Translations under genes and position numbers: made by a program
NCBI GenBank assembly: GCA_020152595.1
Contig: JAIGNY010000739.1
Coordinates: 204,501-268,500 of the forward strand
From: Chiridota heheva
Lineage: Eukaryota > Echinodermata > Holothuroidea > Apodida > Chiridotidae
DNA length: 64,000 bases
Reading direction: 5' to 3'
In this document: positions 13,501 to 19,500 of the stretch, one piece after another
Position numbering within the stretch: position 1 is the stretch's first letter
How the letters are laid out: the number at the start of each line of letters is the position of its first letter
Notes under the pieces: model-generated
Seen by the model: only the letters and a program-made list of their open reading frames with translations
What the model was told of the DNA's origin: nothing
Databases searched by the model: none

Positions 13501-16500
13501 TGATCAAAAAAGTCCATCTTATATGAAAGAGGAATGCAAAAGATACAAAATGGTGAAGAAAGCATTTAAAACTCTCATTCTGTGTAAGGACTAGTTCAGG
13601 GGTCAAGTACGTCCATCTTATATAAAAAGGACTTCTAAAGAAACAAAATGGTGAAAAAAGCAATCAAAAATCTTATTCCGTTAAAGGATTAGTTCAGGGG
13701 TCAAGTAATTCAATCTTTTATGAAAGACGACTTCAAAAGAAAAAAAACGGTGAAGAAAGCATTCAAAAAGATTAGTCCACGGGTGAAGCATGTTCATCTT
13801 ATATAAAAGAGGACTTTAAAAGAAACAAAATGGTGAAGAAAGTATTCAAAAATCTTATTACATTAAAGGATTAGTTCAGGGGGTCAAGCATGTTCATCTT
13901 ATATAAAGAGGACTTCAAAAGAAACAAAATGGTGAAGAAAACACTCAAAAATCTCATTCCGTTAAAGGATTAGTTTAGAGGTCAAGTAAGTCATTCTTAA
14001 ATCAAAGACAACTTCAAAAGAAACAAAATGGTGAAGAAAGCATTCAAAAATCTTATTCCATTAAAGGATTAGTTCAGAGGTCAAGCAAGTCCATCTGATA
14101 CAAAAGAGGACATCAAAAGAAACAAAATGGTGAAAAAAGCATTCACAAATCTTATTCCGTTAAAGGATTAGTTCAGGGTCAAAAAAACAGAGAGGTTTTG
14201 GGAAAAGGGAAGGGAGGAGGTTAAAGGGCAAGCTTAGCGGCTGTATCAGCCCTGTCATTGCCAGGGATGGAACACTTTTCCTGCAGAAGAATAGTCAGAG
14301 AAAATGGCAAAGTGACTTACTCAATAAAGTTGAGGCGAGGAGAATGGCCTTAGCCTCGGCTGAAAAGATGGATGAGTGGTCAGGAAGTCTGCTACTGAGG
14401 GTGATGTCTTGGATGATGGCAGCAGCAGCTGTCTTGTTGCCTTCCTTGGAGCCATCAGTATAGATGGAGGTGTAATTTGAGAGTTGGTCTTTGATTTGGT
14501 TGTGGAGATTGATGAAGAGATTAGGGTGAGTTTGAGTTTTGTTATAAGTGGAGAGGTCTAGGTGGACAGAAGGAAGGGGTGGCCCAAGGCGGAAAAGTGG
14601 GCCAGGAATAGGTGCCGAGTGGCGGGGTTGATGCCAAGTTGAAAGAGGTCTAAGCTGAAGGGGCGATAGGGTTTTAGTCTATCAAAGAGGAGGAGAAATT
14701 GGGGTACCTAATGAGGTTGTAAACAGGGTTCTGGGTGTTGGTGAGGACTCTAAAAGCATAGGAGAGGCTAAGCTGTTTACATCTAAGTAGAAAGGGGTTC
14801 GTTGGCTTCAACATGAAGGCTAGTGATTGGGGAGGTCCTGTAGGCTCTAGACAAAGCCTGGGGCTTCATTTTTGGATGGTGTTAATGTGGTTGAGGTATG
14901 AGTTGAGCGACACAGTAAACAATATTGCCATAGTCAAGCAGCACGAATGGTGAGCCTGAAAATTTTGAGGAGAGCATAGTTGGCTCCCCCAAGTAGTGTT
15001 GGAGAGCAGTCGGAGGAGGTTGGGGAGCTATTGCATTTTAGTTTCAGGTTGGTACACTTGGGGTCAGTCATTTCTACACAGAAAAGAGGAGCTTTAAATT
15101 TGAATAGGTCATTCCCGATGTCATTAATGCTTCCTTAACGGAAGAATATTTTTGAATGCTTTCTTCATTTTGTTTCTTTCATCATAATTTTCATATCGGT
15201 GCTACAGGGGATGATGCTTAACCTAATGCTTGAAATAATCCTTTAATGGACATGTATGAACGAGAAGAAAGCACAAGATCTTTGATTTAATTCTTTAAAT
15301 TTCTGTCCTCACGTTCAACCACTGAAAATCATCAGATTGTTTTCTCCTATCTAGTTGTCATTGAGAGTATAAAAGAGATTCAAAACCATTTGATCATATG
15401 CAACTGCTCCCATTCAAAGAACATTGGTAAAAGATTGTAAAACAGTAGTTTAATATAAGGTTTTCCAGGGTTTTCCTCTTTGTAATGTTCAGAAGAACAC
15501 ATTTTTAGATGAAAGTTATGTTTATTGTTTATAGCATATATTCTTTCAATAACGGCAAGAATAAAGTGACATAAGTTTATTTTTGTCAACTTCCTGAACC
15601 AAGCTACTTTTTGCTTACCTATCGAAACTTGTTCTGGTGATGGCAGCATTTTTTAGTTTGAGAGACTTGCAAATGTCCATCTGTACCTCTGGCGTTGCTG
15701 TGGCTGTCAGTGCCATGAATGGAACCTGAGAATTTCAAAACAAAAACAAGGAATGGAACCTGAGAATTTTAAAAGAATGAACAAGGAATGGAACCTAAGA
15801 ATTTAAAACATAGAACAAGGAATGGAACCTGAGAATTTCAAAACATAGAACAAGGAATGAAACCTGAGAATTCAAAACATAGAACACAAGGAATGGAATT
15901 TGAAAATCTTAAAACAGTACAAGGAATGGAACCTAAGAATGTGAAAACAGAGAAAAAAGAATGGAACCACAGAATTTCAAAACATGGAACACAAGGAATG
16001 AAACCTGAGAATTTCAAAACATATAACAAGATATGGAACCCCTACGAATTTCAAAACAGAAAACAAGGAAAGGAACCTGATCACTACAAAACATAGAACA
16101 AGGAATGGAACATGAGATTAAAAAAAAAAAAAAAGAGAACAAGGAATGAAACCCAAGAATTCAAAACAGAGAACAATGGAACCAGAGAAATTCAAAACAG
16201 AGAACAAGGAATGGAAGCTGAGAATTTCAAAACACAGAACAAGGAATGAAACCTGAGAATTTCAAAACATAAAACAAGGTATAGAACCCCTACGAGTTTC
16301 AAAACAGAGAACAAGGAATGAAACCTGATATTTTCAAAACATAGAACAAGGAATGGAACCTGAGAATTTCAAAACAGAGAACAAGGAATGGAACCTGAGG
16401 ATTTCAAAACAGAACAAGGAATGGAACCAAAGAATTTTAAAATATATAACAAGGAATGGAACCAGAGAAATTAAAAACAGAAAACAAGGAATGGAACTTA

Positions 16501-19500
16501 AGATTTTCAAAACAGAGAACAAGAAATGGAAGCTAAGAAGTTCAAAACAGAGAACAAGGAAAGGAACCTGAGAATTTCAAAACAGAGAACAAGGTATGGA
16601 ACCTGAGAATTTCAAAACAGAGAACAAGGAATGAAACCTGAGAATTTCAAAACCATTTTAGTAGCCTTTAAAGAATTGTTAATTTGTCTCTCCTTTCTTT
16701 TCATTCTTTTGCTTCCCCCTTTTCTTTCTACCATTTCCTTTCTTTTCCTCCCCCTTTTCCTGGATTTTTTTCTCTTTATCGTGGGACCATTGTTGCTATG
16801 GTCCGCTGTGGAGTAGCAATTAATTATAAAAAAATTCACAGCTCTAAATAAAGGTGTCAAAAATCTTCCAACGAAAAATCCCAACAGAAATAATATTAAT
16901 GTAGTGAATACATCTTTATACACTTTCCTCTTTGCAATTAATGTACTATTCATTGCACAATTACATGGATGTTTTTAGGGCACATATTTACCACATATAT
17001 ACTGTTCTTTACTCAAGGATTTTTATTTATTTCAAATGAATTTTTTGTTTCTTCCTGCAAAGTCCTGATTTTCCTGCAATTATAATTGCAGGAACCATAC
17101 ATTTCTTCCAGCTCCGGTCTGCTGTATTTCCACCCCTGGCTTACCATTACATGATCTAGACAATTGTTTTGTCTAAAGTAAAACAAACAATTTGAAGGAT
17201 ATCCTTGTATCAAAAGGATAGAAAGAGAGTTGAACACACAATTACAATGACGGGTCACCTTTTTCTAAAAATAAAATCGGGACTTTACCACGTCCCGAGT
17301 GATCTTGGTATCATTTTAAAGTACTCGAATAGTTCTTTCATAAAATGAAACATGATAGTACAAATGCTATCATTTAAAAAAATTTTTTTAACACGATAAT
17401 TTCGGACGAGAACACAGGTCCTAAGACATGATAGTATTGGGACAGACAGACATAACATCGGCAACCAAGTCAATGTCCACGTCCTTTGATAACCAGTTGT
17501 GGTGCACTGGCGTGTCTACCCACCCCAGGATTGAACCGGGGCCTCGTGGTCTGTAGACAGGTATTATAACCACTACACCCTTTCTTTCACAGGAAAATTT
17601 CAAAATAAATCTAAATAGGTAGATAACCAAAAGGAGACAAAGTTTTCTTCATTTGAAATGATCCAAATAATAAGTATAAATCCTCGGAAGGAATTTCATG
17701 TCTTACAAAACAATTTATCAAAACATTAATTCTGTTAATATCAACTTACATCAGCTACATGACAATAAACTACAAATGAACATAATACAAAAACAAACCA
17801 CACCCACAAAAAAACAAAGCCACACCCACCTCAGGCAACTGACTGCGTAAGTTTCCGAGAGTTCTATATGATGACCTGAAATCATGTCCCCAATGAGAAA
17901 CACAATGAGCCTCATCTATTGCCACAAGGGTAATACCTACAAGGATAAGAAGAAAGTAATCCAAGGTTTTGTATGTACCATTGTGTAGCATAATTAGCTT
18001 AATTGTTCGGGATTACTTAAGAGGTCAAACAAGTTCATTTTATATGAAAGAAGATTTCAAAGGAAACAAAATGGCGAAGGAAACATTTAAAACTCTTAAT
18101 CAGTTAAGGAGATATTCAGTTGTAAAGTTCTGTCGCCTTTGTGAGAAATGACTGAAATCAGACTAGTTGTGATGTCACATCCTCACACCCCTCAAAGTCT
18201 TTATGTTTGGTTTGATTTGATGTGGATGAGCGGCAGTCAGAGTCAAACGTGTCAAGAGGGTGTTAAATAAGTAAGGTGCAAAGGTTAGGAAAGAGACAAT
18301 TGGAAAAGGAAGAAAGGATGAAGAGAAGTGAAAATTTCAAGGGAAATAAGTTGTAGAAGAAAAGGTAGTAAGAGGGAGAGAGGGAGAAGGATGTGAGATA
18401 GGAAAAGGTGGGGGTGTGGGGAGAATAAATCAAGTAGAAAAGGTTGCTGTTGTGGAGGAAGGTGATAATGTTGGAGAGAGATTGTTCTTAAAGAAGTCAG
18501 AAATAGTGGTGGCAGGGGACAGAAAAGATCTGAAGTTGGCGTAAATTGGACAGGTTATTAGAGGATATGATTGATTAAAAGATCAGTATTGCAAGTGGAG
18601 CAGATAGTTTGTTTGTTTGTTTGATGAGGTCTTAACGGCACCACAACAACGAAGGTCAAATTGTGCCTGAGAGGTCAGATCATTTTAGAGGTAGTAAGGA
18701 AAGAGACCAGGGGAGGAATGAGAGAAATTCAAGAACAAAAGCCAGAAAGCTGTGATCGAGAGAGGAGGTGCATGGGTAAAACTAAAAACAGAGTAGAGAG
18801 GGGGTGGAAGAGGAGGATTAAATATGATTGTAGAGGGATGCATGCTGGAGGAAGGAGACTATTTTATCTGGGGATTTTTTTGGAAGAACTCAGCAATTGA
18901 GTTGTGGGGAGCGAGAGAAGCTCTGGGAAGGTTGTACAGGGGCAAGCAAGGAGAACGTGATGGATTGTAAGGATGCAGTGGCAATTGTTACAGAGGGGTT
19001 GGGGGGAACCAATAAGGAGGTGGGAGTGAGTGAGGTGGGTGTGACCAATTCTAAGACGGGTAATATGAACGTTGTCGATACGAGAAAGGTTGTTAATGGT
19101 GGATTTGATCGATTGTGGGCTGGATAACATGGAGTTTGTTATCAATTTGGAAGTTCCATAAGGTTTGCCAGCGGTCACGAACAAGAGAAGCGATAAGCGG
19201 TTTGATGTCAGAGAGGGTTTTGGGAAAAGGGGAAGGAGGAGGTTAAGGGCAAGCTTAGCGGCTGTATCAGCCCTGTCATTGCCAGGGATGCCAACATGGC
19301 TGGGTATCCAGAAGAAAAGAACACTTTTCCTGCAGAGGGTGGGAGAAAAGAGTTTCCGGAGGAGGAGGTGGCAGGTGAGGTTATCCCATTTAAGATTGAG
19401 TAATGAAGTAAGAACAGCCTTTGAGTCAGAGAAAATGGCAAAGTGACTAAGAGGAGAGTACTCAATAAAGTTGAGGGCGAGGAGAATGGCCTTAGCCTCG

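Follow-up and report, generated by a model that had tools for sequence, protein, structure and literature searches.

A probable splice-junction-derived minisatellite at the acceptor end of an intron in a RecQ/WRN-type helicase gene of Chiridota heheva

The DNA considered here is a stretch of 64,000 nucleotides from the holothurian Chiridota heheva (GenBank assembly GCA_020152595.1, contig JAIGNY010000739.1, positions 204,501–268,500). We refer to the whole stretch as the window and number positions from its first letter. On its minus strand the window carries exons of a RecQ/WRN-type helicase gene, one intron of which ends in a tandem array of 35 bp units. The array adjoins the following coding exon without interruption and takes in its first nine bases, and the acceptor that joins the two flanking exons is predicted to lie in the last copy. 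We consider the array to be a minisatellite derived from a splice junction, of the kind described in lancelets as ‘mirages’. This is the best explanation that we can offer, and we place its probability as a whole, the account of expansion and splicing included, at about 75%.

The helicase gene

The exon with the DEAH box and the exon with the ALTATA block (Table 1), when joined through the last AG of the array, encode a stretch of 72 residues. In a search of the PDB, with matches counted up to an E value of 0.001, WRN ranked first of 37 sequences and aligned with the full length of this stretch without a gap (E = 2e-24); chains of RecQ, BLM, RECQ5, RECQ1 and RECQ4 were also matched. The E. coli RecQ sequence matches five minus-strand exons in the window, namely those carrying the DEAH (E = 1e-9), Walker A (2e-8), VATVAFGMG (2e-5), ALTATA (3e-4) and YHAGL (0.005) motifs, matches with E values of 0.63 or more having been excluded. 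All five have AG and GT edges, and their frames are open within the RecQ matches. The ranking of WRN and the five exons located with E. coli RecQ point to a RecQ/WRN-type helicase, the ‘WRN-like’ part of the label being drawn from the helicase core alone. The original prediction, made from the letters of the window, had spoken of a DEAH helicase; a DEAH-box exon is present, and we correct the name of the gene to RecQ/WRN-type.

Anatomy of the array

Tandem Repeats Finder (TRF) reports a period of 35, 26.7 copies and 79% matches. In the sense (minus-strand) orientation the unit reads GTTCCATTCCTTGTTCTCTGTTTTGAAATTCTCAG, and wraparound alignment against it gives 28 rows: one partial distal unit, 26 full units and the exon edge. 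The original prediction held that about 27 repeats each contain the exact intron–exon junction, nine exon bases included, and that the real acceptor is the last copy. The number of copies is confirmed. So is the exonic part, since the unbroken match to the exon, GTTCCATTC, ends after nine bases; these nine bases occur 12 times, the exon itself counted. The position of the acceptor is likewise upheld, in that the exon pair joined through the last AG aligns with WRN without a gap and both exons match E. coli RecQ. Exactness in every repeat does not stand. The exact junction 16-mer GAAATTCTCAG/GTTCC (the stroke marks the intron–exon boundary) occurs five times, the real site counted, and 19 of the 27 units, the real acceptor again counted, have kept the AG of the junction while eight have lost it. 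With up to three mismatches the 16-mer is found 21 times in the window, always within the array, where shuffled sequence leads one to expect 0.71. Nine sites, the real one among them, are identical over the last 12 intron bases, TGAAATTCTCAG.

The distal edge of the array is as sharp as that on the exon side: of the 35 bases that flank it, 6 agree with what a continued repeat would have. The partial distal unit begins at GTTTTGAAATTCTCAG and is without the ten bases CTTGTTCTCT; on neither strand does the rest of the window contain an exact copy of them. TRF also offers a period of 248 bp, and units 11 and 18 have a GG insertion in common. A regular higher-order repeat of seven units was considered and rejected: at lag 7 units differ by 6.63 on average, the overall mean being 6.86, and a value as low arose in 1307 of 5000 shuffles. 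The lowest mean among lags 1–15 is that at lag 14 (5.67, 12 pairs).

Table 1. Helicase exons and the features of the array-bearing intron, in window positions
Feature	Position	Strand	Evidence
Downstream exon of the RecQ/WRN-type gene, VATVAFGMG	7465–7537	−	E. coli RecQ match
Probable downstream exon with YHAGL; among the five RecQ matches the least significant (E = 0.005)	9222–9313	−	
Exon of the RecQ/WRN-type helicase, 107 nt, ALTATA block	15619–15725	−	WRN and E. coli RecQ alignments
Tandem array, 35 bp unit, 26.7 copies; final nine bases (15717–15725) exonic	15717–16653	−	Tandem Repeats Finder
Acceptor AG predicted to be used (last copy)	15726–15727	−	Gapless protein alignment over the junction
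Intron, 2104 nt, with the array at its 3′ end	15726–17829	−	
21 decoy AGs (18 at the junction position, three elsewhere in units), all leading to a stop codon	15760–16639	−	
Branch-point-like TACTAAA (A 16658) and ATTAACA (A 16679), upstream of the whole array	16655–16684	−	Rough matrix
Tandem duplication of the donor end, 22 + 21 bp, from intron base 1 (17829)	17787–17829 (TRF 17789–17829)	−	
Upstream exon with DEAH box	17830–17936	−	WRN and E. coli RecQ alignments
Walker A exon of the RecQ/WRN-type gene; low edge approximate by one base	35745–35853	−	E. coli RecQ match

Origin and divergence of the units

The first nine exon bases encode V-P-F, directly before the conserved ALTATA block. The corresponding residues are VPI in WRN and LPF in E. 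coli RecQ; the alignment with WRN across the exon edge is LPMVPIVALTATA. Since V-P-F has a counterpart in both proteins, this edge of the exon is ancient coding sequence, from which the bases of the repeat were copied. Elsewhere in the window, nine consecutive bases match this part of the unit at one of 125,978 positions. These observations support the derivation of the array from the exon’s own 3′ splice junction, with the exon-proximal copy as the ancestral edge. Such ancestry had been raised as a possibility with the original prediction, and it agrees both with the alignment of the units over the boundary and with the location of the exon-proximal copy on conserved coding sequence.

We envisage that a short tandem duplication took the last part of the intron together with nine bases from the start of the following exon, and that unequal exchange or slippage then raised the number of copies to about 27. 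The copy at the exon would have stayed in place because it alone keeps the reading frame, and the remaining copies would have turned intronic and been left to neutral drift. The first duplication may have involved a segment of 25 bp with 10 bp of filler, or a plain 35 bp with a later loss of 10 bp in the distal copy; the ten bases are pyrimidine-rich, which slightly favours the plain duplication with later distal loss. Either scenario leaves branch-point-like sequence upstream of the array.

The 26 full units carry between 0 and 13 changes from the consensus, with one unit identical to it and the exon-side unit differing by two. Full units differ pairwise by 6.9 positions on average, and the nearest neighbours of units are scattered along the array. 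This pattern would fit independent, star-like decay from a common unit, with a little local copying, in an old array. The two AG columns contain eight changes, a number equalled or exceeded in 160 of 595 column pairs. The decoy AGs are neither visibly preserved nor purged, and selection on them was rejected because their columns are unremarkable. On the sense strand A-to-T changes among the units are in excess of T-to-A changes (p = 1.4e-4; 8e-4 on realignment). Selection for U-richness was considered here and rejected, the excess being dependent on the alignment and a different class of change, C-to-G, being still more asymmetric (p = 1.7e-5) in one of seven other arrays tested.

Decoy acceptors and the probable choice of the last copy

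The units are pyrimidine-rich and most of them have an AG. A ladder of near-identical decoys upstream of the real acceptor had been foreseen, and it exists as 21 acceptor-like AGs, with the AG missing from 8 of 27 units. Use of a decoy had been thought to add either residues or stops. The second outcome is the one found: a stop codon is reached by the end of the exon from 21 of 21 decoys, and likewise from 21 of 21 with the second donor copy of this intron, and the 11 decoys in frame with the exon all meet their stop inside the array. No clean added protein segment results. Decoy splicing would therefore produce no repeat-extended helicase, only a truncated product or a decay-prone mRNA.

Over the 20 bases that precede it, the real AG closely resembles the decoys. 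Since the neighbourhoods are so similar, with nine sites alike over 12 bases, the acceptor itself would hardly discriminate. Recursive splicing, or the use of 35 nt micro-exons, was considered and rejected because the AGGT within units is a poor donor, scoring at most 1.1 against 4.3–11.9 for the five real donors (6.2 for that of the Walker A exon) with an approximate matrix applied to the sequence.

According to the linear-search rule, as stated in PMC1431707, splicing takes the AG that comes first after the branch point, and AGs within about 12–15 nt of it can be skipped. TACTAAA and ATTAACA lie 20 and 41 nt, respectively, before the first AG of the array. Among 525 A-centred sites of this intron they score 2.7 (91st percentile) and 4.3 (98th percentile) with the rough matrix used here to place branch points. 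Another intron of the helicase gene has TACTAAT 27 nt before its AG. With a branch point upstream of the array, splicing would go to the first AG and leave 912 nt of the array, with a stop, in the mRNA. The nearest AG upstream of the real one is 34 nt away and, given this spacing and the linear-search rule, the branch point of the real AG is expected in the last unit or no more than about 15 nt above the preceding AG. For the last AG the candidates are A 15754, at 28 nt with a score of 1.1, and A 15769–15770, at 43–44 nt with scores of 1.6 and 1.0. The decoy AG next upstream has its own A, 15761, within a CTCAG, and this scores 3.1. A 15778, with 3.3, is 18 nt upstream of decoy 15760, whose use it would favour.

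We infer that productive splicing must use the last AG and that the working branch point is probably borne by the array, which seems to have expanded in the interval that separates an older branch point from this obligatory AG. Proximity to the donor downstream could help the last copy through exon definition, and nonsense-mediated decay could remove misspliced RNA so that only the last copy appears in stable mRNA. We expect either that a shifted, array-borne branch point is helped by exon definition or that leakage into the decoys is cleared by decay.

Several points weigh against this account. Some sites within the array (the A of the CTCAG at 3.1 and A 15778 at 3.3) equal or exceed TACTAAA, and the matrix behind all of these scores is a rough one. 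The use of the last AG and the silence of the decoys are predictions from the sequence. In addition, plain neutral drift does not predict the A-to-T excess among the units.

The strongest competing explanation, which we nevertheless think unlikely, is that the array works as a splicing rheostat. The decoys and the upstream branch point would divert pre-mRNA into decaying products with stops, and the copy number would set the productive fraction. It would suit such a device that every decoy gives a stop, that the upstream branch-point-like sites score 2.7 and 4.3 where those serving the last AG score 1.0–1.6 (3.1 when 15761, the A of the neighbouring decoy, is included), that the site at 15778 would favour decoy 15760 and that the 20 bases before the real AG are so like those of the decoys. 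However, decoys maintained for a use should have conserved AG columns, and these are no more conserved than other columns. Lancelet mirages, moreover, are reported not to disturb normal splicing (PMC3087553, PMC3902484), and the roughness of the matrix bears on the branch-point comparison. In an extended and slightly more doubtful form of the idea, the array has moved the canonical acceptor almost 1 kb from its branch point, the gene survives because a new branch point and tract come from the repeat, and up to 21 poison acceptors constantly compete with productive splicing, making array length a heritable and possibly somatically unstable rheostat. If this were true, the gene under such control would be one for genome stability, and its failure might in turn affect the stability of the array.

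It is still less probable that the real acceptor lies elsewhere, for example with the array largely exonic, or that the gene is dead. The last-copy acceptor was assigned from sequence in the manner just described, the distal AG has a branch-point-like sequence at the usual distance and the gene is represented by five located exons, not by a full set. Nevertheless, WRN aligns through the last-copy junction without a gap, each of the two exons matches RecQ, translation from any of the 21 decoy AGs runs into a stop, and the five exons that are seen have the edges and open frames of coding exons in their RecQ matches.

We attach very little weight to an independent minisatellite, or an imported satellite, that abuts the exon by chance and matches the junction by coincidence. 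Tandem arrays are dense in the window (42 merged arrays covering 14,289 of 64,000 bases) and array ends are only mildly enriched near ten known exon edges, but the unit is continued by nine consecutive exon bases, with the rarity given above, and the shared bases are conserved coding sequence. An assembly artefact is just as improbable: tandem arrays are prone to misassembly and the copy number may be wrong, but full units that differ from each other to the extent observed are not assembler-made copies.

Arrays near exon edges and other features of the window

The donor end of the array-bearing intron carries a tandem duplication of its own (Table 1); splicing from the second donor would lengthen the mRNA by 22 nt and put it out of frame. 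The helicase gene has a third array close to an exon edge, 28 bp in two copies at 7395–7451, which starts at about intron base 14 after the exon at 7465–7537. Near the ten known exon edges, one array end lies within 1 bp (3.4% of random shifts reach this number) and one within 5 bp (12.8%). There are two within 10 bp, against 0.28 expected (3.5%), and three both within 20 bp (2.9%) and within 50 bp (13.6%). This excess is mild and no more than suggestive, since the window is rich in arrays.

The G+C content of the window is 37.1%, and scans of the window with Rfam (at the gathering threshold) and ARAGORN gave no match. A dispersed element of about 99 bp forms about eight tandem copies at 13386–14182, downstream of the ALTATA exon, and by eye is also present near 6548–6754 and 17960–18150. 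Pieces of a retroelement of the long interspersed nuclear element type, in separate frames, lie between the Walker A and DEAH exons (18864–23751); Pfam identifies RNase H and endonuclease, with reverse transcriptase below the Pfam cut-off. Stretches resembling a tRNA-derived short interspersed nuclear element were noted by eye, with similar translated open reading frames, at 17420–17590 and 4063–4260; ARAGORN finds no tRNA gene in the window. An array of 28 copies of 45 bp at 44660–45917, with a unit length divisible by three, has long open frames on both strands (412 residues on the minus strand; 203 and 208 on the plus strand). Beside it, at 41016–44376, is a very homogeneous array of about 44 copies of 76 bp (two TRF rows, 95–97% matches).

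Implications for splice-site choice

The choice between splice sites is usually confounded by differences between the sites. Here nine sites in one natural transcript are alike over the last 12 intron bases, and the array provides a natural test of choice among near-identical splice sites. If only the last site is used, the decision must come from neighbouring sequence, position or exon definition; if it is not the sole site used, then a conserved repair helicase tolerates poison splicing. Because branch-point-like sequence sits upstream of the whole array, the question of how the last copy is chosen is sharpened to one of branch-point position and the fate of decoy-spliced RNA. The array also shows the 3′ end of an intron growing by about 0.9 kb without loss of the exon, and it adds a high-copy, acceptor-side case to the boundary minisatellites that have been described.

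Comparison with known systems

Minisatellites at splice sites are known from human genes. In IFI6 (6-16) a minisatellite provides multiple splice donors (Turri et al., 1995, as cited in PMC4526556) and, as in the present array, a repeat lying on a splice site creates a ladder of candidate sites. The IFI6 ladder is made of donors, however, and its downstream units are reported to be used, giving three mRNAs. Variable tandem repeats at exon–intron boundaries of segmentally duplicated human genes can alter splicing (PMC2812944). These likewise include minisatellites at the boundary, and the variable repeats reported there have units of 30 bp on average; they differ in averaging four units and in the alternative splicing and novel introns described for them.

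Introns can also be gained by tandem duplication of AG/GT proto-splice sites (PMC2891723), a process that resembles the present case in the tandem duplication of a segment bearing AG/GT. Here, however, the array stands at the end of an intron and there is no sign of a new intron. A gain of this kind would call for each AG/GT to work as a donor too, and by the scores given above AGGT in the units is a poor one.

The closest likeness is to the mirages of lancelets, reported as minisatellite-like duplications of intron–exon boundaries in Adh3, the globins BflGb6 and BflGb9, troponin C and PGBD5 (PMC3087553, PMC3902484). According to PMC3087553, the Adh3 units are of 10–72 bp, the acceptor-side units of BflGb6 are of 150–160 bp, with six and three copies in two haplotypes, and many but not all units retain the AG or GT, with normal splicing reported as undisturbed. 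Among the matches listed for the terms used, in open-licence literature, we noticed no acceptor-side ladder outside the lancelets.

The present array shares with the reported mirages tandem units that span the splice boundary (26.7 units of 35 bp, with nine exon bases in register), a splice signal retained in part of the units (AG in 19 of 27), an authentic boundary at the end of the array with the coding sequence kept, as read from the gapless WRN alignment through the last copy, and the involvement of both acceptor and donor ends. It differs from BflGb6 in having about 27 copies of a 35 bp unit, with a similar total length, and the exonic part of its unit is only nine bases. Its copies outnumber those of the reported mirages for which a number is given (two to seven, Adh3 not being among them), while its length in bases is not clearly greater. 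In anatomy the array appears to be of the mirage kind, the link with lancelets being one of likeness only. The general phenomenon has thus already been described in lancelets, and the array of C. heheva would be a further boundary minisatellite, placed in a conserved repair helicase.

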